NCBI GenBank assembly: GCA_025499705.1
Contig: JAFMVE010000013.1
Span: 1-64,000, forward strand
From: Carboxylicivirga caseinilyticus
GTDB taxonomy: Bacteria > Bacteroidota > Bacteroidia > Bacteroidales > Marinilabiliaceae
Reading direction: 5' to 3'
Length of the DNA: 64,000 nucleotides
Shown here: piece after piece, positions 27,771 to 43,484 of the stretch
Numbering within the stretch: the stretch's first letter is position 1
Layout: each line of letters opens with the position of its first letter
Notes under the pieces: model-generated
Databases searched by the model: none
The model's input: the letters and a program-made list of their open reading frames with translations, nothing else
Told to the model about the DNA's origin: nothing
Program-made: the position numbers and the translations under genes

Positions 27771-28250
27771 ATGACAGAAGTGAAACAACTGGTTCAAGAC
27801 CTTGCTGATCAATATGGCAGAAACCAGGAAAGTCTGTTACCAATTCTGCAAGGTATTGTAAACAGAGAGCAACACATTTCAGAAGATGCGATGATTGAAG
27901 TAGCCCGGGAATTGAATATTTCGGCAGCTCAGGTTTATGGAACTGCAACGTTTTATTCTTTTCTAAACACCAAACCCCTAGGCAAGTATGTCATTCGTGT
28001 TTGTAAAACAATTACGTGCATGATGCACGGAAAAAATCAGATTATAAAAGAACTTGAAACCGTTCTGAAGGTGAATCTGGGAGAAACCACACACGATGGC
28101 AAATTTACCCTGCTCGAAACAAACTGCCTTGGTCAATGTCATAAAGGGCCGGCAATGTTAATTAACGATAAACCATACACTGAACTTACTCCTGATAAGG
28201 TGAGAGAGATTATAATGATGTATCGTGATAAGGAATTACGAGTAAACTAA
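27771..28250 (+). CDS. hydC: HydC/NuoE-type [2Fe-2S] subunit, set 1
   Basis: Thioredoxin-fold electron-transfer subunit of an NAD-linked hydrogenase. 159 residues with an N-terminal helical bundle and four Cys ligands in the NuoE spacing: C78, C83, C119, C123 (VCKTITC and CLGQC). TATFYSFLNTKPLGKYVIRVC is typical. It starts an operon with hydB1 (19 bases) and hydA1 (17 bases) that ends at the terminator 31310-31335. Confidence 0.9.
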   Translation: MTEVKQLVQDLADQYGRNQESLLPILQGIVNREQHISEDAMIEVARELNISAAQVYGTATFYSFLNTKPLGKYVIRVCKTITCMMHGKNQIIKELETVLKVNLGETTHDGKFTLLETNCLGQCHKGPAMLINDKPYTELTPDKVREIIMMYRDKELRVN

Positions 28251-28269
28251 CCATTAACATCTTTCAACT

Positions 28270-29451
28270 ATGAAAAAGAAACATCTGCAACGACTGGATC
28301 TTATTTTTAAGAACGAACACGATATAGAAGATATTCTAACCAAAACATTCAAAAAAAGCAATGAGGAGCTTGTTAATGATTTGATAAGTTCAGGATTAAA
28401 AGGCCGAGGAGGTGCTGGATTTCCTACGGGTTTAAAATGGAAGCTGGCTTCAGAAGAAGAATCTGATTCTAAATACATTATTTGTAATGCCGATGAGGGT
28501 GAGCCCGGAACCTTTAAAGATCGTGAGATACTATCGAGAGTTCCCCATAAAGTTTTAACCGGAATGGCAGTTTGCGCCCGTATTATTGGAGCCAAAAAAG
28601 GATTTATTTATCTGCGGGGAGAATATGTTTTTCTGAAACCTCAATTAATGGAGGTAATTAAAGAATTTCATCAGTTATTGGATAAGCTCAAACTGGATTT
28701 CAGGGTTGAAATTTTCTTAGGTAGTGGAGCATATATCTGTGGGGAGGAAAGTGCCTTATTTGAAAGTATGGAAGGTAAAAGAGGAGAACCACGGAATAAA
28801 CCTCCTTTTCCAACACAGCATGGCTATAAAAGTAAACCAACCGTAATAAATAATGTAGAAACACTGGCTCATACATATTCGATTTTTAAATATGGTGCCG
28901 ATAAATTTAAAGATTTGGGAGTTCAGGATTCACGTGGGTCAAAAGTATTTTCTGTATCCGGAGATACTCCTATTCCTGGAATTTATGAACTGGAATTTGG
29001 TATGTCGTTACAAAAATTTGTAGAAGATTTTGGTGATGGGGATGCCAAAGCTGTTCAGGTCGGTGGTGCTTCCGGTTTTTGTGTACCCCGCAAAAAGTTT
29101 GACAAAACGGTTATAGGTTATCAGGGTAAACTAAGAGGTACTTCTTTGCCAACAGGAGGCTCCATGATGATTTTCAATTCGTCGCGTTCCATGTATAATG
29201 TCCTGCATAATTATCTTGATTTTTTTGTGGAAGAATCATGTGGGCAATGCACACCCTGCAGGGTTGGAACTCAACAATTATTGTTAGGTATTGAAGCCGT
29301 TAAAAAAGGAGAACAACCCTCTTCTTATCTTGAAAAGTTAATGGAACTGGCTGAAGCAATGCGGATAACTGCTAAATGTGGTTTAGGGCAATCAGTTGCT
29401 AATTCTTTCTCTTCAATTGTTGAGAACTTCAAAGAAGAAATGATCTACTAA
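28270..29451 (+). CDS. hydB: HydB/NuoF-type flavoprotein subunit, short form, set 1
   Basis: FMN/NAD(H)-binding subunit. 393 residues: GLKGRGGAGFPTGLKW (43-58, FMN/NADH site), ICNADEGEPGTFKDRE, GAYICGEESALFESMEGKRG, and the [4Fe-4S] site ESCGQCTPCRVG (C324, C327, C330) with a later Cys (KCGLG). Unlike HydB2 in this window it lacks both the N-terminal [2Fe-2S] thioredoxin-like domain and the C-terminal pair of [4Fe-4S] clusters, which in bifurcating HydB enzymes take part in electron routing. The complex may therefore be a simpler NAD-linked enzyme. Confidence 0.9.
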   Translation: MKKKHLQRLDLIFKNEHDIEDILTKTFKKSNEELVNDLISSGLKGRGGAGFPTGLKWKLASEEESDSKYIICNADEGEPGTFKDREILSRVPHKVLTGMAVCARIIGAKKGFIYLRGEYVFLKPQLMEVIKEFHQLLDKLKLDFRVEIFLGSGAYICGEESALFESMEGKRGEPRNKPPFPTQHGYKSKPTVINNVETLAHTYSIFKYGADKFKDLGVQDSRGSKVFSVSGDTPIPGIYELEFGMSLQKFVEDFGDGDAKAVQVGGASGFCVPRKKFDKTVIGYQGKLRGTSLPTGGSMMIFNSSRSMYNVLHNYLDFFVEESCGQCTPCRVGTQQLLLGIEAVKKGEQPSSYLEKLMELAEAMRITAKCGLGQSVANSFSSIVENFKEEMIY

Positions 29452-29468
29452 CCCTTAAATCGAAAATC

Positions 29469-31259
29469 ATGTCAGATAAGATTAATCTACGAATTGATAA
29501 TATCGCCGTAAGTGTTGAAGAAGGTACAACTATTCTGGAGGCTGCACGAAAGGTAAATATCAGAATTCCTACTTTATGTCATCACGAGGATTTATGTGTT
29601 GCCGGAAATTGCCGGGTTTGTATGGTTGAACAAACCGGAGCTGATAGATTATTGCCATCTTGCGCAATGCCTGTTTCAGAAGGTATGGAGATTCAAACCA
29701 ATAGCTTGAAAGTCAGAAGTGCTCGCAGGCAAATTATTGAATTGCTGGTAAGTGAACACCGAGCCGATTGTACCAGATGTTATAAAAACGGTAAGTGTGA
29801 ATTGCAGGAGCTCTCTTCGGAATATATTATTGGTGAAAGCGGTTTTATTGATTTGGTTCCCTTAAAGGTGATGACCATCGATAATTTTTCACCATCAATC
29901 ATAAAAGATGACAGTAAATGTATTCGTTGCCAACGTTGTGTTCGGACCTGCGATCAACTGCAAAATATAGGCGCTTTAACGGTAGCATACAAAGGGAAAA
30001 ATATGAAGATTTCATCTTTCTATGAAAAGCCAATGTATGAAGTGGTTTGTACCAATTGTGGTCAGTGTGTGAATCGTTGCCCAACAGGTGCTTTAACCGA
30101 GAAGACCTATGTCGAACAGGTGTGGACAGCCATCAACAATGATAAAAAGCATGTGGTTGTACAAACAGCTCCTGCTGTACGTATTGCTTTGGGAGAGGCA
30201 TTGGGTATGCCAGCCGGTGAAATTGTGACTGGTAAAATGGTTTCCGCTTTGCGTCGTTTAGGCTTTGATTCTGTTTTGGATACTGATTTTACAGCTGACT
30301 TAACCATTATTGAAGAGGGTAATGAGTTATTGCAACGTTTGAAAAAAGTGTTGGTTGATGGCGATACTTCGGTTAAAATTCCAATGACAACTTCGTGCTC
30401 ACCAGGATGGGTGAAGTTCATTGAACATACCTTTCCGGAATATCTAGAAAATGTTTCCACTGCAAAATCACCACAGCAAATGTTTGGTGCTTTGGCTAAG
30501 ACGTTCTATGCCAAAAAAGTTAATGTTGAACCGGAGGATATGGTAAGTGTATCCATTATGCCTTGTACAGCTAAGAAATATGAAGCTGACCGTCCTGAGA
30601 TGCGTAGCAGCGGATACAAAGATGTTGATTTTGTTTTAACAACACGTGAGTTGGCTTTGATGATTAAGCAGGCCGGAATCGACTTTGCTTCATTGCCCGA
30701 AGATGAGTACGATAGTTTTATGGGTGAATCCTCAGGTGCAGCAGTAATCTTTGGCGCCACTGGCGGAGTAATGGAAGCTGCCTTGCGCACAGCTTATGAA
30801 GTGGTAACAGGACGCGAGGTTCCATTTGATAATTTGAATATTACGCCTGTTAGAGGTATGGATAGCATAAAAGAGGCAAGTGTTAAAATTGAAAATCCTT
30901 TACCTGAATGGAGCTTTTTGGATGGTGTTGAGCTTAAAACCTGCGTAGCACATGGACTTAGTAATGCTAAGCAAGTTATGGAAGCTGTTAAGTCTGGTAA
31001 AGCCGATTATCATTTTATTGAGATTATGGCATGTCCGGGTGGATGTTTAGGTGGTGGAGGTCAGCCAATTCCAACTTCTCCTGCCATAAGAGAAAAGCGT
31101 AGTAAGGCTATTTACAAAGAAGATAGTTTGAAACCTATCAGAAAATCGCACGAAAATCCTGAGATAGCACAAATCTATGATGAGTTTTTAAAAGAACCAT
31201 TGGGTAAGAAGTCACACCAATTATTACATACTCATTATACAGAAAGAAACAGATACTAA
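29469..31259 (+). CDS. hydA: [FeFe]-hydrogenase HydA, set 1 (variant active-site motif)
   Basis: Catalytic subunit of a multimeric [FeFe]-hydrogenase. 596 residues: [2Fe-2S] domain (C37, C48, C51, C65), His-Cys cluster (H97, C101, C104, C110), two [4Fe-4S] clusters (C151/154/157/161 and C194/197/200/204) and the H-cluster domain. H-cluster motifs: L1 reads TSCSPGW (C310, S311), L2 MPCTAKKYE (C366), L3 EIMACPGGC (C522, C526). In the canonical L1, TSCCPxW, the second Cys is a ligand of the H-cluster cubane; here it is Ser311. The paralogue HydA2 has both Cys at the same numbers. Ends with the usual KSHENP...HTHY tail. Confidence 0.93.
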   Translation: MSDKINLRIDNIAVSVEEGTTILEAARKVNIRIPTLCHHEDLCVAGNCRVCMVEQTGADRLLPSCAMPVSEGMEIQTNSLKVRSARRQIIELLVSEHRADCTRCYKNGKCELQELSSEYIIGESGFIDLVPLKVMTIDNFSPSIIKDDSKCIRCQRCVRTCDQLQNIGALTVAYKGKNMKISSFYEKPMYEVVCTNCGQCVNRCPTGALTEKTYVEQVWTAINNDKKHVVVQTAPAVRIALGEALGMPAGEIVTGKMVSALRRLGFDSVLDTDFTADLTIIEEGNELLQRLKKVLVDGDTSVKIPMTTSCSPGWVKFIEHTFPEYLENVSTAKSPQQMFGALAKTFYAKKVNVEPEDMVSVSIMPCTAKKYEADRPEMRSSGYKDVDFVLTTRELALMIKQAGIDFASLPEDEYDSFMGESSGAAVIFGATGGVMEAALRTAYEVVTGREVPFDNLNITPVRGMDSIKEASVKIENPLPEWSFLDGVELKTCVAHGLSNAKQVMEAVKSGKADYHFIEIMACPGGCLGGGGQPIPTSPAIREKRSKAIYKEDSLKPIRKSHENPEIAQIYDEFLKEPLGKKSHQLLHTHYTERNRY

Positions 31260-31335: not shown

Positions 31336-31468
31336 ATAGCTTATTTTTTAATGTTTTAATAATGAGTGTTATAGCTCATGTGCATTGGTCAACTTATTAT
31401 TTAGTATTGATATAAATTACCGTTTTAAAGGGGACAGGAAATCTAATTACGGATAAATTTATATAATT

Positions 31469-31493: not shown

Positions 31494-31754
31494 ATGGATA
31501 ACAAAGTAGAAATTACCATTTGTTTAGGGAGTTCCTGTTTCTCAAGAGGAAATAAGGAAGTACTTCAAGTGATTAAAAGCTTTATTGCCGAACACCAACT
31601 GGAAGCAAAAGTTTTTTTTCATGGTGACTTATGCGGAGGAAGATGTGAAGAGGGGCCTGTATTAAAGATTGATAATACATTGTATAAAAAGGTTAGTGTT
31701 GATAATGTATATGAAATCTTACGTAGCTTTTTTGATATTAATGATAATGTCTAG
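31494..31754 (+). CDS. thioredoxin-like [2Fe-2S] ferredoxin
   Basis: 86-residue NuoE-C-terminal-like ferredoxin with four Cys in the expected places: C10, C15, C47, C51 (CLGSSC and CGGRC). Likely carries one [2Fe-2S] cluster and passes electrons to or from the sensor hydrogenase encoded 12 bases downstream. A 16-base AT palindrome (31469-31484) lies just upstream of its start. Confidence 0.85.
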   Translation: MDNKVEITICLGSSCFSRGNKEVLQVIKSFIAEHQLEAKVFFHGDLCGGRCEEGPVLKIDNTLYKKVSVDNVYEILRSFFDINDNV

Positions 31755-31766
31755 AATATAGAATCT

Positions 31767-33626
31767 ATGGCTCAACTTATTGTTGCAGATAAGGATAAGT
31801 GTAATCTGAGTTATACATGTGTTCGGGTTTGTCCGTCAAAAGCGATTAAAATAGCCGACCGGCATGCACAGATTTTACCCGATCGTTGTATTGGTTGCGG
31901 ACATTGTGTTACAATGTGTTCGCAAGAAGCTATCAGTTACCGCGATGAACAGACTATTGTACAGGAATTACTGGCTTCTAAAATGAAAGTGGCAGCCATT
32001 TGTGATTCTGCCATATCAGGTGAATTCAATGATGTAACTGATTACAGAAAATTTGTGGCAATGATTCGTGCCTTAGGTTTTGATTATGTAACAGAAATGT
32101 CCTTTGCAGTTGACTTAATTGCCTATCGCTACAAAGATTTGGTTGATAACTTTCAGGGCAAACATTTTATATCATCCAAATGTCCGGCGACAGTCAAATA
32201 CATTGAACGACATGAGCCGGAACTTGTTGAGAATCTCGCAGGTATTGTTCCTCCTTATGTTGCAATGAGTAAGGTTGTGCATCAACGTTATGGAGCGGAT
32301 ACCAAAATAGTTTATATTACAGCATGTACTGCTGCTAAAGATGATACCAAGCGGTTTCATGGTAGTGATGGTAGTATAGAATCGGTTCTCACTTTTGTTG
32401 AATTAAGGAAATTATTCAAGAAAAAAAGAATCACAGAGAATACAGTTGAATACAGTGAATTTGATCCTCCACTTGGAAGAAAAGGAGGTCTTTTCCCAAT
32501 CTCGCATGGCTTATTTCAGGCAGTTGATATCAATCAGGGCTTGCTAGAGGGAAATATTCTAATTACCGAAGGAAGAACCAATTTTTTACAATCTATTAAG
32601 GAATTTAAAGAAGAGAAGGATATGCATCAGCATCTTGATCTTTTTTATTGCAGGGGGTGTATCATGGCACCAGGAATGACACCCGGAGGTAAAAAATTTA
32701 CACGTCGTTCGCAAGTGATTGAATATGTAGATAAAAGGATGAAGGCCATAGATGTTTACCAGTGGCGGCTTGATGTTGAGGAATTTAAAACCTTGGATCT
32801 GAGTCGTTCATTCAAATCTGTTGACTTACGTCTTTCTCAACCGAGCGAGGAGGATATTGATCGTGTTTTGCTGGAAATGGGGAAAGGAAAACGTGAAGAT
32901 CAATTGGGGTGTGGAGCATGTGGTTATCCTTCCTGTCGTGAGTTTGCTGTAGCTCATTTGCAAGGATTGACGAATTTTGAACAATGTTATACCTATTCTA
33001 TAAAATCACTTAGAAGCTATGTTAAAAAACTAAATGCTTCCAACGAAAAATATAAGCAATCTCAAGATGCTTTATTGAAAAGTGAAGAGAGGGCAAGATA
33101 TGAAGAACGATCGGCCAAAGAGGCTGCAGAAACTACAACAGCAATGCTTAATAAACTAAGAGCCGGAGTGGTTATGGTCGATGCCAATTTAAAGGTGGTA
33201 GAGGCTAACCGCCGGTTCATAGAGATGTTGGGTGAAGACGCCAGAGAAATTTCAATGCTTATCCCAGGTTTGAAAGGTGCCGAATTGAGTAAATTAATTG
33301 ATTTTCATCGAGTGTTTACAACTGTATTACAATCCGGTCAGGATGTGCTGGACAGAGATGTTACATATGGTAATTCTATACTTAATGTTTCGGTATTTAC
33401 CATTAAGAAAAACGAAGTTGTTGGTGGCATTATCCGTGATCTGGTAACACCTGAAGTTCGAAAAGAGGAAGTAATTAAGCGGGCCCGTGATGTTATCAAA
33501 GAAAACCTGCAAACAGTTCAGCAAATAGCCTTTTTACTAGGTGAAAGTGCCTCAAAAACAGAAAAAACGCTTAATAGTATCATAGAAGCACAGCAGTTGG
33601 GAGAATCCAATGAATCAGGAAAATAA
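31767..33626 (+). CDS. sensory [FeFe]-hydrogenase-like protein with Fes4 and PAS domains (HsfB type)
   Basis: 619 residues. Order: two ferredoxin clusters (first C12, C18, C22 with Ser15 in the usual second Cys place; second C41/44/47/51); a hydrogenase H-domain (about 75-330) with altered motifs SSKCPAT (C139; Lys138 where the proton-relay Cys should be), TACTAAKDD (C187) and YCRGC (C295, C298, CxxC instead of CxxxC); an Fes4 cluster GCGACGYPSC (C382, C385, C390); a coiled coil (about 408-465); and a PAS domain (about 465-560, VVMVDANLKVVEANRRF). This is the layout of the putative sensory group D/HsfB hydrogenases. Probable role: senses H2 or redox state and passes it to the phosphatase, whose gene overlaps its last 17 bases. 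Confidence 0.85.
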   Translation: MAQLIVADKDKCNLSYTCVRVCPSKAIKIADRHAQILPDRCIGCGHCVTMCSQEAISYRDEQTIVQELLASKMKVAAICDSAISGEFNDVTDYRKFVAMIRALGFDYVTEMSFAVDLIAYRYKDLVDNFQGKHFISSKCPATVKYIERHEPELVENLAGIVPPYVAMSKVVHQRYGADTKIVYITACTAAKDDTKRFHGSDGSIESVLTFVELRKLFKKKRITENTVEYSEFDPPLGRKGGLFPISHGLFQAVDINQGLLEGNILITEGRTNFLQSIKEFKEEKDMHQHLDLFYCRGCIMAPGMTPGGKKFTRRSQVIEYVDKRMKAIDVYQWRLDVEEFKTLDLSRSFKSVDLRLSQPSEEDIDRVLLEMGKGKREDQLGCGACGYPSCREFAVAHLQGLTNFEQCYTYSIKSLRSYVKKLNASNEKYKQSQDALLKSEERARYEERSAKEAAETTTAMLNKLRAGVVMVDANLKVVEANRRFIEMLGEDAREISMLIPGLKGAELSKLIDFHRVFTTVLQSGQDVLDRDVTYGNSILNVSVFTIKKNEVVGGIIRDLVTPEVRKEEVIKRARDVIKENLQTVQQIAFLLGESASKTEKTLNSIIEAQQLGESNESGK

Positions 33627-34800
33627 ATTCTACATCGATATCGAATGCCGGCAGAATAATCATGTTGGTGAGCTTATTTGCGGCGATGTTTTTCTTTCAA
33701 AACGCATCAAAGAAGAAGGAAGAACAATTGCTGTATTATCTGATGGAATGGGTAGTGGGGTTAAAGCTAATGTATTGGCAACATTAACCGCTTCGATGGC
33801 GCTTAATTTTACGGTTGAACATCGTGAGGTAAGAAGAACAGCAGAAATAATTATGAATACTCTGCCGGTTTGTAGTGTTCGAAAGGTGAGCTACAGCACA
33901 TTTACCATTATTGATATTGAAGATGATGGCACAACCACAATTGTGGAGTATGATAATCCAACATGTACCATCACCCGTGGAGCTGAAATATACGATGCCA
34001 AATGGGATTATATTGAGCTGGAAGGAGAACAAAACAGAGGTAAGAAAATACGTATCTGTCGTTTTATTGCCAGGCGTGAAGACCGCATCTTTTTTTGGTC
34101 TGATGGAATAATGCAGTCAGGTATGGGTACAAAGGCATTTCCATTTGGCTGGGGCGAAGATGGTATGCGCGACTATGTGAAAAGTTTGGTTAGATATACT
34201 CCATTCGCATCCTCGGGTAAGTTGGCTCAAAAGGTTCTGAATATGGCACTTCTACATGATGGAGATAAGCCTAAAGATGATTCTTCATGCGGGGTTATTT
34301 ATTTCAGAGAACCAAGAAAATTATTATTGGTTACCGGGCCTCCGTATGAGGATAGTAAAGACTTTCAATTTGCATTAAAGGTGCAGCATTTCAAGGGTAA
34401 AAAAATAATAGCAGGTGGCACCACAGCAGAAGTGGTTTCCAGGGAACTGGCATTGAAATTTGATGCAGGTTTGGAATCTGACGATCCGGATTTGCCACCT
34501 ATATCATTTATGCAGGAAATAAACCTGGTGACAGAAGGCATTCTTACACTTGGCAAAGTGGCACGCTTACTTGAACAATATAATATGGATACAAGGCTGG
34601 GTAAAGGTCCTGCAGATCAGATTATAAAAATGCTTTTTGAGAGTGATAAAATACACATTATCAATGGTACACGCATTAATGTGGCGCATCAGGATCCGAA
34701 TCTTCCGGTAGAGTTGGAAATTAGAAGAACGGTAGTTAAAAGGATTATCAGATTACTGGAAGAAAAGTTTTTGAAAGATGTAGATGTCGAGTATATATAA
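33610..34800 (+). CDS. SpoIIE/PP2C-type serine phosphatase
   Basis: 396 residues. The N-terminal two thirds is a SpoIIE-type PP2C domain: CGDVFLSKR (G25-D26), VLSDGMGSGVKAN (D45-G46, metal site), FFWSDGIMQSGMG and DDSSCGVIYF, all in order. The C-terminal 150 residues (from about ITGPPYEDSKDF) are unassigned. The gene starts 17 bases inside the sensor hydrogenase gene, so the two are translationally coupled. Such phosphatases act on Ser-phosphorylated partner proteins; the target here is unknown and no STAS-domain protein is encoded nearby. Confidence 0.85.
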   Translation: MNQENKFYIDIECRQNNHVGELICGDVFLSKRIKEEGRTIAVLSDGMGSGVKANVLATLTASMALNFTVEHREVRRTAEIIMNTLPVCSVRKVSYSTFTIIDIEDDGTTTIVEYDNPTCTITRGAEIYDAKWDYIELEGEQNRGKKIRICRFIARREDRIFFWSDGIMQSGMGTKAFPFGWGEDGMRDYVKSLVRYTPFASSGKLAQKVLNMALLHDGDKPKDDSSCGVIYFREPRKLLLVTGPPYEDSKDFQFALKVQHFKGKKIIAGGTTAEVVSRELALKFDAGLESDDPDLPPISFMQEINLVTEGILTLGKVARLLEQYNMDTRLGKGPADQIIKMLFESDKIHIINGTRINVAHQDPNLPVELEIRRTVVKRIIRLLEEKFLKDVDVEYI

Positions 34801-35049
34801 TTGACGAAAATCATGATCTTATGATTCCTTACAGAATGGAATTACAGAATGTTCTATTCTTATATTTTATAAGTGGTTACGTTGTTTTTATAACTTGATT
34901 ATTGAACATTAATTTAGATTTGATATGTATTATAGAAAATCAAGATCTTCATTTTTTTTTTTCATATTATTAGTATTCATTTGTTAAAGAATCATGAAAA
35001 ATTTCTTTAATCGAGAAGCTTGATTCTGAATACTAAAGGCTGATCCAAC
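34801..35049 (+). promoter_or_regulatory. spacer with possible promoter of the DRTGG operon
   Basis: No ORF. AATCAT/ATGATT (about 34810-34827) forms a short hairpin after the phosphatase gene. TTG (34895-34897), 17 bases, TAGATTTG (34915-34922) is promoter-like though its spacing is shorter than usual. Confidence 0.35.
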
Positions 35050-35394
35050 ATGAAAATAAAAGAGATTGCAGAAATATTAGAGGCAAAGGTGGTTTGTGGA
35101 GAGGACGACATTGATAGAGACATACGATGTGGCTTTGCCAGTGACCTGATGAGCGACGTATTAACATTAGACTCAGAAAACCTGGCCCTCATTACGGGTT
35201 TAGCCAATATGCAGGTTATCAGAACAGCCGAAATGGCTGATGTTAACTGTATTGTTTTTGTGCGCGATAAGCATGTGAGTAATGAAATGATTGAGGTTGC
35301 CAAAGAAAATGATATGGTACTTCTCGAGTGCAAATATTCAATGTTCAACACGATAGGTAAATTGTTCCAGGCAGGATTAGCACCTGTTTACTGA
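35050..35394 (+). CDS. DRTGG-domain protein 1
   Basis: 114 residues, a single DRTGG domain (PF07085-type fold) with MKIKEIAEILEAKVVCG at the start and GFASDLMSDVL...LALITGLAN in the middle. DRTGG domains occur in phosphotransacetylases and regulatory proteins; the function of stand-alone versions beside hydrogenases is not known. First of a tight group of six genes; the GHKL ATPase follows 9 bases later. Confidence 0.82.
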   Translation: MKIKEIAEILEAKVVCGEDDIDRDIRCGFASDLMSDVLTLDSENLALITGLANMQVIRTAEMADVNCIVFVRDKHVSNEMIEVAKENDMVLLECKYSMFNTIGKLFQAGLAPVY

Positions 35395-35403
35395 TTTATA
35401 GAT

Positions 35404-35820: not shown

Positions 35821-35827
35821 AAATTGT

Positions 35828-37210
35828 ATGAGCGAACAACAGTTTTATCATGCTTTAAAAGTAGACCGCGACAAATGCTTCGGGTGTGTTCATTGTATGA
35901 ATGAATGCCCGACTGATGCAATTCGTATTCGTGATGGAATTGCCACAATTCGTAAGGATTGGTGCATTGATTGCGGGGAGTGCATGAAAGCCTGTCCGGT
36001 TGATGCAATATATGTTGAGCAGGATGACTTTGATGATATCTTTCGTTACAAATACAGGGTAGCCATATTACCATCTGTTTTTATTGGTCAGTTTTCGAAA
36101 GTCATCAGTGTAGATGAAATCATAGAAATATTAAAAGGATTAGGTTTCACTCATATTGTGCCGGCTGAGGCAACTGTGGATGTAATTAATGAAGCAATGC
36201 TTGAAGCCTATGATTCAGATATTGAGAAACCTTTAATTAGTACTTTCTGTCCTTCAATTGTCCGTTTGATTCAGGTTCGTTTTCCCGGATTGGTTCACAA
36301 TATTATGCCTATCAAACCACCCATTGACACTACTGCAATTTATTACCGTAAGCGTTTGATTGATGAAGGAAACAATCCGGAAGAGATTGGAATATTTTAC
36401 GTAACACCTTGTGCATCTAAAATTGCAACTGTTAAAGCTCCGGTTGGAGAGGACGAGTCTTTTGTGGATGGAGTCATTAACATGGATTTTTTATACAACA
36501 AGGTTTACCACATCTTAAAAAATCGAAATGTAGCCAGAGAAGCTAATGAGACTGATGCATTTGAATACATTAGCCCTAAGGCACTACGCTGGAGTCTTAC
36601 AGAAGGTGAATCTTCCAGCATGAAAGGCCGTTGTTTGGCTATCGATGAAATTCATAATGTTATTAAATTTCTGAATAAGGTTGAGAATGATGAAATCATT
36701 AATGTTGATTTTATCGAATTAAGAGCTTGCGACCAGAGTTGTGCCGGAGGTGTACTGCTTAGCGAAAATCGTTTCCTTACGGTTGAGCGTATGAAAAAAA
36801 GGGCAGAAAACCTTGAGCAAATGCAAATAAAAGCCAAAGAGATCAGCTTTGATCATCATCAATATATAAAAGAAAGATTATCCATTAAGCCAATAGAACC
36901 CCGTTCGATGATGGGTTTGGATAACGATATGGCCACTGCCATTAAGAAAATGGAACGAGTGCGTCGTATCATGTGTTTTTTACCTGGTATTGACTGCGGA
37001 GCCTGCGGTTCGCCGAGTTGCGAAGGTCTGGCACGTGATATTGTATTAAAGGATGCAAATCTTTCGAGCTGTGTGTTTATGCAGCGAATGATGGAAAAAA
37101 GTAAAAAACTGGATCCGCAGCATTCCATTCGAATTATTGAGAAAACATGGGGAAAAGATCGATTGGATAAGGATTGTTATAAAAAAGGAGCAAAAAATGA
37201 AGGTAACTGA
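35828..37210 (+). CDS. [FeFe]-hydrogenase-like protein with Fes4 cluster (second sensor)
   Basis: 460 residues: two complete [4Fe-4S] ferredoxin motifs (C17/20/23/27 and C46/49/52/56), an H-domain (about 75-310) and an Fes4 site (C390, C393, C398, C415). The H-motifs are STFCPSI (C141, Phe140 at the proton-relay position), VTPCASKIA (C195) and ELRACDQSC (C301, C305): all four cubane ligands remain, while the catalytic surroundings are altered. No PAS domain, unlike the first sensor. A close kind of gene sits beside hydABC in Thermotoga and clostridia from memory. Overlaps the next gene by 14 bases. Confidence 0.85.
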   Translation: MSEQQFYHALKVDRDKCFGCVHCMNECPTDAIRIRDGIATIRKDWCIDCGECMKACPVDAIYVEQDDFDDIFRYKYRVAILPSVFIGQFSKVISVDEIIEILKGLGFTHIVPAEATVDVINEAMLEAYDSDIEKPLISTFCPSIVRLIQVRFPGLVHNIMPIKPPIDTTAIYYRKRLIDEGNNPEEIGIFYVTPCASKIATVKAPVGEDESFVDGVINMDFLYNKVYHILKNRNVAREANETDAFEYISPKALRWSLTEGESSSMKGRCLAIDEIHNVIKFLNKVENDEIINVDFIELRACDQSCAGGVLLSENRFLTVERMKKRAENLEQMQIKAKEISFDHHQYIKERLSIKPIEPRSMMGLDNDMATAIKKMERVRRIMCFLPGIDCGACGSPSCEGLARDIVLKDANLSSCVFMQRMMEKSKKLDPQHSIRIIEKTWGKDRLDKDCYKKGAKNEGN

Positions 37211-37532
37211 TATAATTGAAAAACTTAATCTGAAGGTTATTGCAGGTGCAGAAGGCTTGCAAAATAAAGTGACAGGAGGCTACACTTCAGATTTGTTAAG
37301 CGATGTAATGGGAAATGCAGATGAAGGTCAGGTTTGGATTACCCTGCAAACACATCGCAATGTGATGGCTGTGGCATCGCTTAAAGAAGTGGCTGCCGTT
37401 ATTATCGTCAAAGGCTTGGAAGCAGAGGAAAGCACCATCAGTCAAAGTAATAATGAAGGGATTCCTTTGTTAAGTTCCGATTTGGAAACATTTGAATTGT
37501 CGGGCCAGCTGTATCAGTTATTGCATCCGTAA
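37197..37532 (+). CDS. DRTGG-domain protein 2
   Basis: 111 residues, paralogue of the protein at 35050-35394 (KVTDIIEKLNLKVIAG; GGYTSDLLSDVMGNA; VWITLQTHRNVMAVA). ATG 37197 has AAAGGAG just upstream and is preferred to the longer frame from 37137. Overlaps the sensor gene before it and ends one base before the PHP gene, so it is surely in the same operon. Confidence 0.82.
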   Translation: MKVTDIIEKLNLKVIAGAEGLQNKVTGGYTSDLLSDVMGNADEGQVWITLQTHRNVMAVASLKEVAAVIIVKGLEAEESTISQSNNEGIPLLSSDLETFELSGQLYQLLHP

Positions 37533-37533
37533 G

Positions 37534-38277
37534 ATGAATCTTTTCAAAGCTGATCTACATATTCATACGGTCCTTTCTCCATGCGGAAGTCTGGAAATGA
37601 GTCCGAAAGTGATTGTAGAACGTGCTTTGGAAATGGGGTTAGATATTATTGGTATTACCGATCATAACTCAACACTGCAGTGTGAAGTAGTTGTGAAATT
37701 AGCCGGTAAAAAAGGATTGACGGTTCTTTGTGGAGCTGAAGTAACCACCAAAGAAGAAGTCCATTGCCTAACGTTCTTTGAAACTTTTGAAAAACTTGAA
37801 ACTTTTCAGCAATATCTGGATCAACATCTTCCGGATATTCCAAATGATACTGAAATGTTTGGACACCAGGTTTGGGTTGATGAAGATGAAAATATACTGG
37901 GTGAAGAAAGTCGATTGTTGATTAGTGCCATTGATCAGAGCATAGAAGAGGTGGAAGCAATGGTGCGGAGTCTGGATGGTTTGTTTATTCCAGCTCATGT
38001 TGATCGGGGGCGATTCAGTTTATACAGTCAGTTGGGTTTTATGCCTTCTGATTTAAAACCGGATGCCGTGGGTGCGACTTTCAGAGCCAACATGGATGAG
38101 ATGATTAAAAGTCATCCAGAGTTGAAAAAGCTTGCTATACTAAGGTCATCCGATGCACATTTTCCGGAGGCAATTGGTACTCACTACACTGTTTTAGAAA
38201 TGGAACAATGTAATTTTAGTGAAATTCGGTTGGCCCTTCATCAAAAGGATGGTCGAAAAGTAAAGGAACTGGTATGA
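37534..38277 (+). CDS. PHP-domain metal-dependent phosphoesterase
   Basis: 247 residues with the PHP metal-binding motifs ADLHIHTVLSPCG (near residue 6), GITDHNS, PAHVDRG and RSSDAHFPEAIG. PHP proteins hydrolyse phosphate esters with a trinuclear metal site. ATG 37534 directly follows the upstream stop; the longer frame from 37492 would overlap the DRTGG gene. Could dephosphorylate a protein or nucleotide in the hydrogenase signal pathway; substrate unknown. Overlaps the next gene by ATGA. Confidence 0.85.
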   Translation: MNLFKADLHIHTVLSPCGSLEMSPKVIVERALEMGLDIIGITDHNSTLQCEVVVKLAGKKGLTVLCGAEVTTKEEVHCLTFFETFEKLETFQQYLDQHLPDIPNDTEMFGHQVWVDEDENILGEESRLLISAIDQSIEEVEAMVRSLDGLFIPAHVDRGRFSLYSQLGFMPSDLKPDAVGATFRANMDEMIKSHPELKKLAILRSSDAHFPEAIGTHYTVLEMEQCNFSEIRLALHQKDGRKVKELV

Positions 38278-38816
38278 GAGATCTTTCGATGCATATCACC
38301 GATATCGTTCAAAACTCGGTACGAGCGAAGGCTAAACTTATTCAGCTTACGATTGAAGAAAAAGGAGAATGGCTGGTTTTTACTTTTGAGGATGATGGTA
38401 CTGGAATGGATGCGGAAACGGTGAAAAAAGTAACAGATCCATTTTATACCTCACGCACAACCCGCAAAGTTGGGTTAGGATTACCACTTTTTAAGCAAAA
38501 TGCAGAACTAACAGGTGGCACTCTGGAGATATATTCTCAATTAGGAGAAGGTACAACTGTAAAGGCTGATTTTGGAAAGGACCATATCGATCGTCCACCA
38601 ATGGGTGATTTAAAATCAACAGTAGCTATGCTGATCACCGGGAATCCCGAAGTTGATATGGTATTCACCTATCGAACAAAGGATGATGAGTTTAGATTGG
38701 ATAGCAGAGAAGTTAAGGAAGTGTTGGATGGAATGGATATCAGAATGCCTCAGGTGACAAGTTTTTTGAAAGAAATGATTGATGAAAATTTAAAAGAGAT
38801 AAAAGCAGACTTATAA
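38274..38816 (+). CDS. GHKL ATPase 2 (histidine-kinase-like)
   Basis: 180 residues: HATPase_c domain with N-box HITDIVQNSVRAKA (Asn14), G1 DDGTGMD (40-46), DPFYTSRTTRKVGLGLPLFKQN (F and G2 boxes, about 56-76). No sensor or dimerisation domain, and a C-terminal extension (about 105-180) unlike common kinases. Genes of this kind accompany hydABC in several anaerobes from memory. It may be a kinase or simply an ATP-dependent partner protein. Confidence 0.82.
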   Translation: MRDLSMHITDIVQNSVRAKAKLIQLTIEEKGEWLVFTFEDDGTGMDAETVKKVTDPFYTSRTTRKVGLGLPLFKQNAELTGGTLEIYSQLGEGTTVKADFGKDHIDRPPMGDLKSTVAMLITGNPEVDMVFTYRTKDDEFRLDSREVKEVLDGMDIRMPQVTSFLKEMIDENLKEIKADL

Positions 38817-38896: not shown

Positions 38897-39304
38897 ATGA
38901 CTAAAGTGAAATCCCTTGCCGACCTTCGAAAAATGAAGGAAGAATTGGCAAACAAAGTCCAGCTGAGAGAAAAGAGCGATCATCCTGATAAAATCGTTCA
39001 GGTGAAAGTTTCGATGGCTACATGTGGAATTGCCTCAGGTGCCAAAGAAGTGATGAACCATATTATTGAAGAGCTGGACAGACAGGCAATAGATGCAGTC
39101 GTAACCCAGACCGGCTGCATGGGTTATTGCTATGCCGAGCCTACTATTGAGGTAACTTTGCCCAGCTCCAATCCGGTTGTGTTTGGGTATGTAGATTTTA
39201 AAAAAGCCAACGAAATAATTGCAAAGTACATTATTAGGGGTGAGTTGGTAGATGGAATCATCCCCGTAAATTACGAAACAGTTAACGATAAAAAGAACGA
39301 CTAG
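38897..39304 (+). CDS. (2Fe-2S) ferredoxin-domain protein
   Basis: 135 residues, thioredoxin-like ferredoxin fold with SMATCGIASGAKE (C43) and TGCMGYC (C74, C78). Only three Cys occur in the whole protein, one fewer than HydC-type subunits, so the fourth ligand of any [2Fe-2S] cluster is unclear. It precedes hydB2 by 10 bases, as the equivalent gene does in Thermotoga-type hydrogenase loci from memory, and may be an extra electron carrier of the complex. Confidence 0.8.
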   Translation: MTKVKSLADLRKMKEELANKVQLREKSDHPDKIVQVKVSMATCGIASGAKEVMNHIIEELDRQAIDAVVTQTGCMGYCYAEPTIEVTLPSSNPVVFGYVDFKKANEIIAKYIIRGELVDGIIPVNYETVNDKKND

Positions 39305-39314
39305 GTATAACGCT

Positions 39315-41108
39315 ATGGCAAAATATAAAAATCATGTTCTTGTGTGTGGCGGTACAGGATGTCGCGCATCGCAAGGAGAAGAGATTGTACAAAACCTGAA
39401 TCGTATTCTTGAGGAGAATGGTCTCGAGCAGGAAGTTCAGGTGGTAAGAACAGGATGTTTTGGTTTCTGTGAAAAAGGTCCTGTGGTAAAAATGGTTCCC
39501 GATAACACTTTTTATGTGCAGGTTAGCCCTAAAGACGCAGAAGAGATTGTTAAAGAGCATCTGGTTAAAGGCCGTCAGGTTGAAAGACTTTTATACATCG
39601 ATCCGGAAACAAAAAAACAAGTTTCAGAATCGAAAAACATGGGCTTCTACAAAAAACAGATTCGGATTGCTTTACGAAATTGTGGATTTATCAACCCTGA
39701 AAATATAGATGAATATATTGCCCGCGATGGGTATGCTTCATTAGGTAAAGCTCTTACTGAGATGAAACCTGAAGAGGTAATCAAAATTATTATTGATTCC
39801 GGATTACGTGGTCGTGGTGGAGGTGGATTCCCTACCGGATTAAAATGGGATATTACCCGCAAAGTAGAATCAGATCAGAAATACGTAGTATGTAATGCAG
39901 ACGAAGGAGATCCGGGAGCCTTTATGGATCGTTCCATTCTGGAAGGTGATCCGCATTCAGTTTTGGAGGCAATGGCTATCAATGCCTATTGTACAGGTGC
40001 CGACAAAGGTCTGATTTATATCCGTGCAGAGTATCCGCTTGCTATTAAACGTTTGAAAATTGCCATTGAACAGGCTCGTGAATATGGCTTGTTGGGTAGT
40101 GATATATTTGGTACCGGTTTTAATTTTGATGTCGAATTACGTTTTGGTGCCGGTGCTTTTGTTTGTGGTGAAGAAACTTCGTTGATTCACTCCATGGAAG
40201 GATTACGAGGAGAACCTACAGTTAAACCTCCTTTCCCTTCAGAAAGCGGATACAAAGGCAAGCCTACCAACGTAAATAATGTTGAGACTTACGCCAACAT
40301 TCCGGTTATCCTGATGAAAGGTGCTGAATGGTTTAGCAGTATCGGAACCGAGAAAAGTAAAGGAACCAAGGTGTTTGCCCTGGCAGGAAAGGTAAATAAC
40401 GTTGGTTTGATTGAAGTACCGATGGGTACCACTCTTCGGGAAGTAATTTTTGATATTGGTGGTGGTATTAAAGACGGTAAGAAATTTAAAGCTGTTCAAA
40501 CAGGTGGGCCATCGGGTGGGTGTTTAACCGATAAACACCTTGATATACCTATTGATTACGATAACTTGCTGGCCAGTGGATCAATGATGGGATCTGGTGG
40601 TATGATCGTGATGGATGAAAGCGATTGTATGGTATCAATGGCTAAGTTTTATCTTGATTTTACTGTTGAAGAATCATGTGGTAAGTGCGCTCCATGTCGA
40701 ATCGGTAACAAGCGTTTGTACGAAATGCTTCATAAAATTACCGAAGGAAAAGGTACTGAGGCCGACCTTGATAACCTTCGCAATTTGAGTAATGTTATTA
40801 AGGATACCTCGCTTTGTGGTTTGGGGCAAACCTCTCCAAATCCGGTTTTATCAACCATGGAAAATTTCTGGGATGAATATATCGCACACGTGAAAAACGA
40901 TAACTGTCCGGCTGGTCAGTGTAAAGCGTTAATGCAATATGTTATTGACGAAGAAAAATGTGTGGGTTGTACTTTATGCTCACGTGTTTGTCCGGTTGAT
41001 GCCATTGCAGGTGAGAAAAAAGCACCGCATGTGATCAATCCAACAACATGTATTAAGTGTGGAGCGTGTTATGAAAAATGTAAGTTCGGAGCGATCAGCA
41101 TCCAGTAA
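39315..41108 (+). CDS. hydB: HydB/NuoF-type flavoprotein subunit, full length, set 2
   Basis: 597 residues: N-terminal thioredoxin-like [2Fe-2S] domain (C11, C16, C48, C52), NuoF core with GLRGRGGGGFPTGLKW (about 163-178), GAFVCGEETSLIHSMEG, [4Fe-4S] motif ESCGKCAPCRIG (about 452-463) and a C-terminal pair of [4Fe-4S] motifs (CVGCTLCSRVC and CIKCGACYEKC). This domain set is that of HydB of electron-bifurcating hydrogenases, where NAD(H), ferredoxin and H2 are coupled at the FMN. Followed 36 bases later by hydA2. Confidence 0.94.
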   Translation: MAKYKNHVLVCGGTGCRASQGEEIVQNLNRILEENGLEQEVQVVRTGCFGFCEKGPVVKMVPDNTFYVQVSPKDAEEIVKEHLVKGRQVERLLYIDPETKKQVSESKNMGFYKKQIRIALRNCGFINPENIDEYIARDGYASLGKALTEMKPEEVIKIIIDSGLRGRGGGGFPTGLKWDITRKVESDQKYVVCNADEGDPGAFMDRSILEGDPHSVLEAMAINAYCTGADKGLIYIRAEYPLAIKRLKIAIEQAREYGLLGSDIFGTGFNFDVELRFGAGAFVCGEETSLIHSMEGLRGEPTVKPPFPSESGYKGKPTNVNNVETYANIPVILMKGAEWFSSIGTEKSKGTKVFALAGKVNNVGLIEVPMGTTLREVIFDIGGGIKDGKKFKAVQTGGPSGGCLTDKHLDIPIDYDNLLASGSMMGSGGMIVMDESDCMVSMAKFYLDFTVEESCGKCAPCRIGNKRLYEMLHKITEGKGTEADLDNLRNLSNVIKDTSLCGLGQTSPNPVLSTMENFWDEYIAHVKNDNCPAGQCKALMQYVIDEEKCVGCTLCSRVCPVDAIAGEKKAPHVINPTTCIKCGACYEKCKFGAISIQ

Positions 41109-41144
41109 TTTACACCAGTATTTTTGAACAGAAAAAGATAAGAA

Positions 41145-42911
41145 ATGGATATCGTTCAATTAACCATAGATAATAAAAAGGTAGTCGTTGAAAAAGGAAC
41201 TACCATCTTAGAAGCGGCAAAGACAATCGGGGTAGATATACCTTCGCTTTGCTATATGAAGTTGGAAGACACCAACTTTGAAAATAAGCCCGGCGGATGT
41301 CGCGTATGTGTTGTTGAGGTAGAAGGTCGTCGTAACCTTGCTCCGGCATGTAAAACGGAGTGCTCTGAAGGTATGACAGTTAATACGCACTCGGTGAGAG
41401 TGGTTAACGCACGTCGCACAGTTATGGAGTTGATTCTTTCAGATCACCCTTTTGAATGTCTGGTTTGTGCAAAATCAGGTGATTGTGAATTGCAGAGTCT
41501 GGCTCAAAAACTGGGTATTCGTGAGATAAAATACACGGGTGCCAAGAGTACTTACAAAGGTGATGAATCGCCCGCTATTATCCGTGATATGGATAAGTGT
41601 ATTATGTGTCGCCGTTGCGAAACAGCATGTAATGATGTACAGACAGTAGGGGTTCTTTCAGCTATTAACAGAGGCTTTGAATCAGTGGTTGCACCAGCCT
41701 TCGAAATGGATCTTGACCACTCAACCTGTACCTTCTGCGGGCAATGTGTGGCAGTTTGTCCTACCGGTGCACTAACCGAACGCGATAGTTCATCCAAAGT
41801 GATGGATGCGATTGTAAATCCAACCAAAACTGTAATAGTTCAGACAGCTCCGGCTGTGAGAGCTGCATTGGGTGAAGAATTTGGAATGGAACCAGGAACA
41901 TCTGTAACAGGTAAGATGGTTTCTGCTTTGCGCAAACTGGGATTCGATTATGTATTTGATACTGATTTTGCTGCTGACCTTACCATTATGGAAGAAGGCA
42001 CTGAATTGTTAGATCGCTTAAGCAAGCATCTGGCAGGAGATAAGGATGTTAAATTGCCAATTCTTACTTCCTGTTGTCCTGGATGGGTAAATTTCTTTGA
42101 GCATCAGTTCCCTGAAATGATTGATATTCCTTCAACAGCCAAATCACCTCAACAGATGTTTGGTGCTATTGCCAAAACGTATTTTGCAGATCAGTTAAAA
42201 CAGAAGCGTGAAGATGTAGTGGTTGTTTCTGTAATGCCATGTTTGGCTAAGAAATATGAATGTTCACGCGAAGAGTTTGCGGTAAATGGCGATCCGGATG
42301 TGAATATTTCCATCTCTACCCGTGAGTTGGCTCAGATGATACGCAATGCCAACCTTAATTTTGAGGCATTGGATGATGAAGATTTTGATAAACCATTAGG
42401 AGAATCAACAGGTGCAGCTGTGATATTTGGTACAACCGGAGGAGTGATAGAAGCAGCTGTTCGTACAGCTTACGAGGTGCATACTAAAAAGCCTTTGGAA
42501 CGACTTGATTTTGAAGAGTTGCGTGGTATGGAAGGTATCCGTTCTGCAACCATTGATTTCGACGGGTTACCTATTAATATTGGTATTGCTCACGGCTTAG
42601 GTAATGCGCGTAAATTACTCGAAGACATCAAAGCCGGTAAATCAGAGTTTCATGCAATTGAAATAATGGCTTGTCCCGGCGGTTGTATTGGTGGCGGTGG
42701 TCAACCTTATCATCATGGCAATGTTGATATCTTGAAAAAGCGTCAGCGTGCTATATACGAAGAGGACAAAGGCAAAGTATTGCGTAAATCACATGAGAAT
42801 CCGTTTATACAAAAACTGTATGCCGAGTTCCTGGGTGAACCATGTGGACATAAGTCTCATGAGTTGTTGCATACGCATTATTACGATAAGAAAAAGAAGA
42901 TTGAAATCTGA
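41145..42911 (+). CDS. hydA: [FeFe]-hydrogenase HydA, set 2
   Basis: 588 residues, same domain order as HydA1: [2Fe-2S] domain, His-Cys cluster (HPFECLVCAKSGDCELQ), two [4Fe-4S] motifs (CIMCRRCETAC, CTFCGQCVAVC) and a canonical H-cluster domain with L1 TSCCPGW (C310, C311), L2 MPCLAKKYE (C366) and L3 EIMACPGGC (C510, C514). All catalytic residues are present, so this is the most likely working hydrogenase: H2 evolution from NADH plus reduced ferredoxin, or the reverse. Confidence 0.96.
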   Translation: MDIVQLTIDNKKVVVEKGTTILEAAKTIGVDIPSLCYMKLEDTNFENKPGGCRVCVVEVEGRRNLAPACKTECSEGMTVNTHSVRVVNARRTVMELILSDHPFECLVCAKSGDCELQSLAQKLGIREIKYTGAKSTYKGDESPAIIRDMDKCIMCRRCETACNDVQTVGVLSAINRGFESVVAPAFEMDLDHSTCTFCGQCVAVCPTGALTERDSSSKVMDAIVNPTKTVIVQTAPAVRAALGEEFGMEPGTSVTGKMVSALRKLGFDYVFDTDFAADLTIMEEGTELLDRLSKHLAGDKDVKLPILTSCCPGWVNFFEHQFPEMIDIPSTAKSPQQMFGAIAKTYFADQLKQKREDVVVVSVMPCLAKKYECSREEFAVNGDPDVNISISTRELAQMIRNANLNFEALDDEDFDKPLGESTGAAVIFGTTGGVIEAAVRTAYEVHTKKPLERLDFEELRGMEGIRSATIDFDGLPINIGIAHGLGNARKLLEDIKAGKSEFHAIEIMACPGGCIGGGGQPYHHGNVDILKKRQRAIYEEDKGKVLRKSHENPFIQKLYAEFLGEPCGHKSHELLHTHYYDKKKKIEI

Positions 42912-42913
42912 TT

Positions 42914-42972
42914 AGTATCAAGATGAAAGTATCAAGATGAAAGTATCAAGATTCATGATTGTCTTGATACTT
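42914..42972 (+). repeat. 14-base tandem repeat merging into a hairpin, hydA2-hydC2 spacer
   Basis: AGTATCAAGATGA occurs at 42914-42926 and 42928-42940, and a third partial copy starts at 42942. The third copy forms a perfect 11-base stem: AAGTATCAAGA (42941-42951) with TCTTGATACTT (42962-42972), followed shortly by a run of T. May tune hydA2 versus hydC2 expression. Confidence 0.6.
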
Positions 42973-43007
42973 GATACTTTTTATCTTATGTCTTAAAAAA
43001 TAATAAA

Positions 43008-43484
43008 ATGGCAAATATAAAATTACCCGCTGCAAAAGTAGATGAATTAAAAGAGGTATGTAAGAAGTTCGATAACGATGGTGGCGAACTGATTAATGTG
43101 CTTCATGCAGCACAGGAAATGTTTGGCTATCTGCCTGCCGAGGTTCAGGAACTGGTTGCCGAGGAATTAAATGTTTCAGTGGCACATGTTTATGGTGTCG
43201 TCACTTTTTACTCTTTCTTTTCAATGATACCCAAAGGACAGCATCCTATTTCCATTTGTATGGGAACAGCATGTTATGTACGTGGTGCTGAGAAGGTGTT
43301 GGATGAGTTTAAAAAACATCTGAACGTAAAAGTGGGAGAGACAACCGATGACGGTAAATTCTCTATCAGCTGCCTGCGTTGCGTAGGAGCCTGCGGATTG
43401 GCACCAGTGGTTACTGTAGGTGAGCGTGTTTACGGACGAGTTGCTCCCGAAGATGTAAAAGGTATTATTGAAGAGTACCTGTGA
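43008..43484 (+). CDS. hydC: HydC/NuoE-type [2Fe-2S] subunit, set 2
   Basis: 158 residues with the NuoE fold and ligands C84, C89, C125, C129 (CMGTAC and CVGAC). VYGVVTFYSFFSMIPKG is the family hallmark. Completes the second hydBAC set; unusually it lies after hydA rather than before hydB, as it does in set 1, and is separated by the repeat/hairpin at 42914-42972. Confidence 0.92.
   Translation: MANIKLPAAKVDELKEVCKKFDNDGGELINVLHAAQEMFGYLPAEVQELVAEELNVSVAHVYGVVTFYSFFSMIPKGQHPISICMGTACYVRGAEKVLDEFKKHLNVKVGETTDDGKFSISCLRCVGACGLAPVVTVGERVYGRVAPEDVKGIIEEYL

Follow-up and report, generated by a model that had tools for sequence, protein, structure and literature searches.

A conserved sixteen-gene array in Carboxylicivirga caseinilyticus joins two hydrogenases of different predicted electron donors to two putative sensory hydrogenases

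An open question about fermenting bacteria is how they choose among forms of hydrogen (H2) output. The sequence analysed here is a 64,000-nucleotide stretch of the Carboxylicivirga caseinilyticus genome (assembly GCA_025499705.1, contig JAFMVE010000013.1, positions 1 to 64,000), referred to as the window. An array of sixteen genes at 27771-43484, every one on the + strand, was identified there from open reading frames and their translations with Pfam and NCBIfam models. It consists of hydC1-hydB1-hydA1 (27771-31259), signalling genes (31494-38816), and a [2Fe-2S] protein gene with hydB2-hydA2-hydC2 (38897-43484). A sequence-only reading of the window had described two sensors and a kinase/phosphatase pair joined to two different hydrogenases in one locus, which could switch between the enzymes by H2 or redox level. 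The combination was found to be conserved among relatives, and the two hydrogenases indeed differ, namely in their predicted electron donor (reduced nicotinamide adenine dinucleotide, NADH, alone or with ferredoxin). Switching between them was unsupported as proposed, since the same 23-base-pair (bp) dyad lies before both hydrogenase units and, in relatives, before nrfH. Gene content, coordinates and order were as that reading gave them, and only its "ferredoxin" at 31494-31754 was renamed, being a thioredoxin-like [2Fe-2S] protein (PF01257) and no classical ferredoxin. The genes of the array are as follows.

27771-28250, +: hydC1, NuoE-like [2Fe-2S] subunit (PF01257, 164 bits)
28270-29451, +: hydB1, compact NuoF-like subunit of 393 amino acids, predicted non-bifurcating (NADH-only); Thr/Lys, Tyr and GGASG, without B2 ligands or N- and C-terminal cluster domains
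29469-31259, +: hydA1, catalytic [FeFe] subunit with L1 motif TSCSPGW (NF040763, 885.7 bits); set-1 clade
31494-31754, +: trxFd1, thioredoxin-like [2Fe-2S] protein 1 of 86 amino acids (PF01257, 37.7 bits)
31767-33626, +: sensor 1, group C/M2f-like sensory [FeFe] hydrogenase (PF02906, 119 bits; PF04060; PAS_8)
33610-34800, +: SpoIIE/PP2C-type phosphatase (PF07228, 26.9 bits); C-terminal domain from about residue 233 without a Pfam match
35050-35394, +: DRTGG-domain protein 1 (PF07085, 32.8 bits)
35404-35820, +: GHKL ATPase 1, SpoIIAB/RsbW-like serine-kinase type (PF13581, 47.5 bits; TIGR01925, 63.6 bits, below its cut-off of 135)
35828-37210, +: sensor 2, group D/M2e-like sensory [FeFe] hydrogenase without PAS domain (PF02906, 77 bits; PF04060, 41.5 bits)
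37197-37532, +: DRTGG-domain protein 2 (PF02603, 31.5 bits; PF07085, 26.1 bits)
37534-38277, +: PHP-domain protein (PF02811, 40.4 bits; PF13263)
38274-38816, +: GHKL ATPase 2 (PF02518, 63.6 bits)
38897-39304, +: trxFd2, thioredoxin-like [2Fe-2S] protein 2 (PF01257, 19.9 bits, below cut-off; its place before hydB2 is kept in relatives)
39315-41108, +: hydB2, full-length bifurcating-type subunit of 597 amino acids; A202/M204, Phe, GGPSG, B2 ligands and terminal Cys sets
41145-42911, +: hydA2, catalytic [FeFe] subunit (NF040763, 911 bits)
43008-43484, +: hydC2 (PF01257, 172 bits)

Longer gaps precede hydC1, trxFd1 at 31494 (234 bp) and DRTGG1 at 35050 (249 bp), which suggests three main transcription units. 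Intergenic distances inside these units were mostly small, with 80 bp before trxFd2 and 96 bp before hydC2. The genome to which the window belongs comprises 5.65 Mb in 145 contigs.

The beta subunits HydB allow the two enzymes to be assigned to classes. By the criteria of PMC7311640 and PMC9304861, bifurcating HydB is separated from NADH-only HydB by Ala/Met near the NADH site, Phe at position 367 of Thermotoga maritima, a GGPSG motif and His/Cys ligands of cluster B2, together with an N-terminal [2Fe-2S] cluster and two C-terminal [4Fe-4S] clusters. NADH-only subunits lack GGPSG and clusters B2 to B5; they have Tyr at 367, and at the NADH site Thr/Ser with Lys/Ser/Ala. HydB2 featured A202/M204, the Phe, GGPSG, B2 ligands C438-H525-C531-C536, four N-terminal and eight C-terminal Cys residues, and its residues 1-594 aligned to chain 7t2r_B with 869 bits. 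HydB1 is a NuoF core lacking the cluster domains that HydB2 has at both ends; it carries Thr/Lys, Tyr and GGASG, has Ser in place of C438 and ends before H525. Six further short HydB1 proteins had the same diagnostic states (GGASG or GGAAG). On every item scored, a set that does not include F182 of PMC9304861, HydB1 is in the NADH-only state and HydB2 in the bifurcating state. HydCBA1 is predicted to be an NADH-only enzyme and HydBAC2 an electron-bifurcating one using NADH and ferredoxin.

Trees of HydA and HydB (56 rows each, from the window and 31 of 120 annotated loci, with one outlying HydA row excluded) separated set 1, set 2 and a third HydABC-like set (M4), each by a single branch, with Shimodaira-Hasegawa approximate likelihood ratio supports of 99, 99 and 100 for HydA and of 100, 87 and 99 for HydB; branches were long in M4, and in the HydB tree long branches joined M4 and set 1. 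HydA identity was 47-55% between sets, at least 62% inside set 1 and at least 71% inside set 2. Judged from these sequences the two hydrogenases are old, distinct enzymes, and a local duplication of hydABC was rejected because sets 1 and 2 form separate clades. The motif TSCSPGW of HydA1 was considered as a sign of a damaged H-cluster and this was ruled out, as identical letters occur in the Acetobacterium chain 7q4v_A. The third set (HydB of about 650 and HydA of about 574 amino acids, followed by a sensor of about 665, for example L063:13865-15820) lies divergent from sensor1-spoIIE in many of the Bacteroidales stretches that were fetched (L041-L075). Its HydA often departs from the usual L1 motif (9 rows), and the set may not be a hydrogenase.

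The two sensors differ in their domains. Sensor 1 carried two [4Fe-4S] sites, an H-domain, the motif Cx2Cx4Cx16C and a PAS domain, and sensor 2 carried two [4Fe-4S] sites, an H-domain and the same motif, without PAS and upstream of HydABC. The Cys residues were invariant in both (C382/C385/C390/C407 in a 10-sequence alignment of sensor 1, C390/C393/C398/C415 in a 6-sequence alignment of sensor 2), and a looser four-Cys motif with a last spacing of 14-18 was present in all 60 sensor-1 proteins of 600-645 amino acids. Domain layouts of group C/M2f and group D/M2e sensors are described in PMC8163306, and by that description and the one in PMC6776011 sensor 1 appears group C-like and sensor 2 group D-like. 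In sensor 1 the third H-cluster motif reads CxxC and so lacks one residue that sensor 2 and the HydA subunits have; among the same 60 homologues its first position was C in 50 and N in 7, with 3 unparsed, and CxxxC was kept in all 80 sensor-2 matches. The role of group C and D "sensory" [FeFe] hydrogenases is still termed putative (PMC8163306, PMC13104023), and by analogy with homologues (PMC8163306, PMC6776011) the signal read by both sensors would be H2. The maturases HydE, HydF and HydG are all present in the genome, the last of them within the window:

49160-50593, +: HydG, H-cluster maturase, outside the array (TIGR03955, 519 bits)

Candidate phosphorylation partners are encoded beside the sensors. 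An AlphaFold model of the phosphatase from a 40-sequence alignment had a mean predicted local distance difference test (pLDDT) score of 87.4, and Foldseek matched it to serine phosphatases of the SpoIIE, RsbX and RsbU kind (best E 9.2e-13; SpoIIE 1.3e-12). Its C-terminal domain (window 34306-34800, about 165 amino acids) is strongly conserved and lacks a Pfam match; a confident model from a 34-sequence alignment (pLDDT 88.6) had no fold match in the PDB at E <= 0.001, and this is possibly a new ligand- or partner-binding domain. The two DRTGG proteins keep SDLMSDV (DRTGG 1) or SDLLSDV at 95% or more per column (78 and 80 sequences). By their families the GHKL proteins would act as kinases and the SpoIIE-type protein as the opposing phosphatase, and we infer that the DRTGG proteins may be the phospho-target, perhaps in place of a STAS antagonist.

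Named genomes were scanned with a sensor-2 alignment, and the best 80 of at least 485 confirmed relatives were annotated with the proteins of the window. The exact 16-gene order was present at 17 of the 80 loci (15/51 among loci of at least 20 kb), in genomes that include Carboxylicivirga, Alkaliflexus, Labilibacter and Marinilabilia, and this comparison of neighbourhoods excluded that the order arose by chance in this strain only. The closest named relative by sensor 2 among the matches listed, from which records near the window were possibly omitted, was Carboxylicivirga linearis with 87% identity. Parts of the array were more widely kept: the ten-gene cassette from DRTGG1 to hydC2 was exact in 48 of the 51 longer loci, and the six-gene block from DRTGG1 to GHKL2 in 74/80, with several of the others cut by contig ends. 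In 11/80 loci hydCBA1 stands directly before DRTGG1, with no sensor-1/phosphatase unit between them. The trxFd1-sensor1-spoIIE unit occurred in other arrangements in a sample of 40 stretches, of which 39 came from relatives in the family and order and one from the same genome. In three of those 40 stretches (L068, L070, L071) hydCBA1 runs straight into trxFd2-hydB2-hydA2-hydC2; with both alternative layouts counted, hydCBA1 is paired with hyd2 in more than one arrangement. Within the available stretch, Thermophagus (L095) had no hydCBA1 and Parabacteroides (L097, L098) had the six-gene block with no hydrogenase adjoining.

A full-length hydB1 match was found in 40 of the 71 genomes of the family, with a fragment in a 41st, and 38 of the 40 also had a hydB2-type match. 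In 29 of these 38 the two genes shared a contig and strand, with hydB2 11.3-15.1 kb downstream, and in the remaining 9 they were on separate contigs. Of 295 genomes sampled from the order, 117 had a match to the compact HydB1 at E <= 1e-120, a few of the matches being partial; NADH-only H2 production, as predicted from these matches, may therefore be common in Bacteroidales.

A 25-bp matrix of about 20 bits was derived from 77 DRTGG1 upstream regions, and only three sites of at least 12 bits were found in the window, one at the head of each unit:

27632-27656, strand not assigned: candidate operator (23-bp dyad) before hydC1 (12.9 bits; exact match to TWATTWAGANNNNNTMTNNATWA)
31396-31420, +: candidate operator before trxFd1-sensor1-spoIIE (19.0 bits)
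34909-34933, +: candidate operator before DRTGG1 to hydC2 (25.4 bits; the matrix was trained with this region included)

Distances from dyad to start codon were 128 bp (hydC1), 87 bp (trxFd1) and 130 bp (DRTGG1). Among the training upstreams 65/77 exceeded the 98% shuffle threshold and 63/77 reached 12 bits. The evidence from outside the training set was provided by hydC1 upstreams of set 1 in other genomes, of which the DRTGG1-only matrix recovered 17/36 at 12 bits or more against 0.28 expected (50 dinucleotide shuffles, maximum 3) and 27/36 at 8 bits or more against 1.24 expected. At the 12-bit threshold none of 356 unrelated open reading frame upstreams and none of 167 GHKL1 and PHP upstreams had a site, and a matrix trained on Marinilabiliaceae only recovered sites in other families at 19 of 52 DRTGG1 upstreams, where 0.1 would be expected. 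Sites were also scarce upstream of sensor 1 without trxFd1 (0/9), of trxFd2 (4/81) and of the third HydABC-like set (2/24, both in a region shared with an already counted trxFd1). None of the four longer loci that have the block with no hyd2 adjoining (L097, L098, L140, L152) had a DRTGG1 site of at least 12 bits, against 63/73 of the others, the four loci not being independent and ten of the other 73 also lacking the site.

The strict pattern TWATTWAGANNNNNTMTNNATWA had two exact matches in the 5.65-Mb genome, both at the array. Across 14 genomes of the genus it matched exactly 47 times (two palindromic places being scored twice, once per strand) and the reversed pattern 12 times; by distance to hydB1, and with the genome of the window included, the DRTGG1 site was present in 13/14 and the hydC1 site in 6/14, together 19 of the 47. 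The DRTGG1 upstream region was conserved across Carboxylicivirga. Because the same dyad stands nearly equidistant before both hydrogenase units, co-regulation of the two by one factor is predicted.

Neither Rex nor HcpR2 operators accounted for the element. Rex sites were at background (15 against 14.7 expected and 8 against 8.7, with up to three mismatches), and the weak ones near the array were not above chance. The HcpR2 operator GTAACnnnnGTTAC had no exact match in the window and none with up to two mismatches in the gaps before hydC1, trxFd1 and DRTGG1; separately, its partial matches with up to two mismatches numbered 40 in the window against 21 in shuffles and were mostly intragenic. 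The Bacteroidetes promoter pattern TTTG-N17..23-TAnnTTTG occurred 5 times against 5.0 expected, with none in the array.

The reading we favour, with confidence a little above an even chance, is a conserved modular H2 locus built from three units: (i) HydCBA1, the predicted NADH-only [FeFe] hydrogenase; (ii) the group C-like sensory hydrogenase with its SpoIIE-type phosphatase; and (iii) the group D-like sensor, the DRTGG pair, both GHKL ATPases and the PHP protein, with HydBAC2, predicted to be bifurcating, downstream. One cis element is common to the three units in the window and to the two hydrogenase units in many relatives, and since it is shared the hydrogenase units would most likely be expressed together under an anaerobic or redox transcription factor. 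The two sensors would then adjust output through protein phosphorylation, a GHKL kinase working against the SpoIIE phosphatase with a sign of control that we infer, and the two enzymes would cover two ranges of H2 pressure. NADH-only H2 output is confined to low H2 (17-40 Pa for the Syntrophomonas enzyme, about 70 Pa at equilibrium), and output from NADH and ferredoxin can exceed 1000 Pa (PMC5626996).

Several observations weigh against this reading. The dyad before trxFd1 reached 12 bits in only 5/50 upstreams elsewhere and was absent from the other 45; at that threshold it was also missing from 14/77 DRTGG1 and 19/36 hydC1 upstreams, and the hydC1 site of the window itself scored just 12.9 bits. 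In the same genome, matches with at most one mismatch were at background (15+15 against 15+18 for the reversed-pattern control), and such sites were rejected as a regulon. The dyad is not private to hydrogen metabolism, as it was present at further places in relatives; among these (sites L184-L194), it preceded an nrfH-like gene by about 90 bp in 4 genomes of the genus and lay between permease- and methyltransferase-like genes, so named without a Pfam match, in 7 genomes. NrfH, NrfA and Hcp were checked by Pfam at the nrfH-like locus of one relative, and the genome of the window has a site with one mismatch there together with NrfH and Hcp by Pfam. Because the dyad is rare before the sensor-1 unit elsewhere and also stands before nrfH, the factor that binds it probably has a wider role, as an anaerobic or nitrogen-oxide regulator.

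Further points of the same kind concern the proteins. HydA1 and HydA2 both pass the NCBIfam model "NADH-dependent, group A6" (NF040763), so that this name does not separate the enzymes. Partner switching of the SpoIIAB/RsbW type has a STAS antagonist and a sigma factor as partners; the Pfam scan found neither among the array proteins, which leaves the textbook switch incomplete, and PF01740 (STAS) had 5 matches elsewhere in the genome, three of them in short frames of 111-123 amino acids. In Parabacteroides gordonii (L097, G362) none of HydE, HydF and HydG was found above the cut-off, the sensor-2 block is kept, and three Fe_hyd proteins are encoded. Either that assembly misses three loci or the Fe_hyd proteins function without a standard H-cluster, and since the block persists there it need not always read H2. 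Finally, in 27 of the 51 longer loci (20 kb or more) the cassette with hydB2 stood without a nearby hydB1, a count of the neighbourhood only.

The strongest alternative, which we nonetheless consider unlikely, is a reciprocal shift in which H2-reading sensors promote HydCBA1 when H2 is low and HydBAC2 when it is high, through opposite arms of a phospho-switch. It would make sense of two sensor classes of which one adjoins a phosphatase and the other kinase-like ATPases, of enzyme types that differ in their H2 limits (PMC5626996), and of the sensor-bearing hydrogenase cluster of Ruminococcus albus, which was lowered 111-fold when an H2 consumer was grown alongside (PMC6776011). However, the same cis element at a similar distance before both hydrogenase units counts against simple reciprocal promoter switching, and with so many cassettes lacking a nearby hydB1 the group D cassette hardly exists mainly to choose between enzymes.

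Next in rank, and also doubtful, is a two-input integrator in which the sensor-1/phosphatase and sensor-2/ATPase arms would oppose each other on one DRTGG phospho-switch and thereby set by H2 the share of electrons taken by each hydrogenase. The nearly invariant Ser-Asp-Leu-x-Ser-Asp-Val stretch of the DRTGG proteins would be part of this proposed switch.

Internal H2 cycling, with one enzyme making and the other consuming H2 to give a net ferredoxin:NAD+ oxidoreductase balanced by the sensors, seems improbable and stands third. It would suit two linked enzymes that are probably co-expressed and whose predicted donors differ, and cycling with HfsD, HydABCD and NfnAB has been proposed for Thermoanaerobacterium (PMC11837493), although waste is predicted if both enzymes run freely. 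The least probable reading, which we rate very low, is that sensors acting on other targets such as fermentation genes are only loosely clustered with the hydrogenases in an order inherited within one family: the recombination of modules in other Bacteroidales, the Parabacteroides block with no hydrogenase beside it and the raised adhE transcripts after deletion of hfsA or hfsB in Thermoanaerobacterium (PMC5707799) agree with it, but hydCBA1 pairs directly with the sensor-2/hyd2 cassette (11/80) or trxFd2-hydB2 (3/40) and the units have the cis element in common.

Two further features adjoin the conserved modular locus. One lies divergent from hydC1, with the hydC1 dyad between both genes:

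26826-27551, -: AlbA_2/Schlafen-domain protein (PF04326, 80.9 bits)

This gene adjoined hydC1 in 14/17 exact-order loci; it appears loosely linked and is a candidate regulator. The LytTR/LytS pair at 43771-47405 was rejected as part of the system, matches of at least 60 bits lying beside the array in 2/80 loci, many of which end a few kb past hydC2.

Searches of open-licence literature in PubMed Central (PMC) found no account of this array, of both sensor types and both hydrogenase types in one array, of the dyad, or of H2 signalling in Carboxylicivirga. The individual modules each have a known relative. TamHydS of Thermoanaerobacter mathranii is a group D (M2e) sensory hydrogenase encoded with HydABC (PMC8163306), like the sensor-2 cassette; here, in contrast, that cassette adjoins another hydrogenase, predicted to be NADH-only, as well as a group C-like sensor and its phosphatase, and the Pfam scan found no AraC-type gene among the array proteins. 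A PAS sensor and a Ser/Thr phosphatase likewise stand beside a catalytic hydrogenase in hfsABCD of Thermoanaerobacterium and in the HydS/HydA2 cluster of R. albus, where, unlike in the array, the neighbour is a ferredoxin hydrogenase (HfsD or HydA2; PMC5707799, PMC11837493, PMC6776011). A layout resembling hfsB-hfsC-hfsD was also observed on another contig of the same genome (C55, L037), with a sensor of 574, a phosphatase of 395 and a hydrogenase-like protein of 484 amino acids. Hyd1ABC of Syntrophomonas wolfei, compared by description, has a compact HydB that lacks both the N-terminal [2Fe-2S] and the C-terminal [4Fe-4S] domains, like HydB1; it and HydAB of Syntrophus are NADH-dependent and non-bifurcating and have the same diagnostic residues as HydB1 (PMC5626996, PMC7311640), whereas here the genes for such an enzyme have those of a bifurcating-type hydrogenase and of sensory hydrogenases as neighbours.

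HydB2 aligned near full length, with B2 ligand positions kept, to the bifurcating HydABC enzymes of Acetobacterium, Thermoanaerobacter kivui and Thermotoga and to NiFe-Bfu of A. mobile; it showed no difference from bifurcating HydABC in the scored items, and its gene context differs. A SpoIIAB-like GHKL ATPase and a SpoIIE-type phosphatase of PP2C fold are shared with SpoIIAB/SpoIIE and RsbW/RsbU, from which the array differs in having no STAS antagonist and no sigma factor. A new feature is the 23-bp dyad, which stands at the head of the hydC1, sensor-1 and sensor-2/hyd2 units. With this defined DNA element, one 16-gene array of cultured anaerobes brings together sensors of both types, a phosphatase and kinase-like partners, and a pair of hydrogenases of opposite predicted ferredoxin need; the question of H2 sensing is therefore directly testable in one place.

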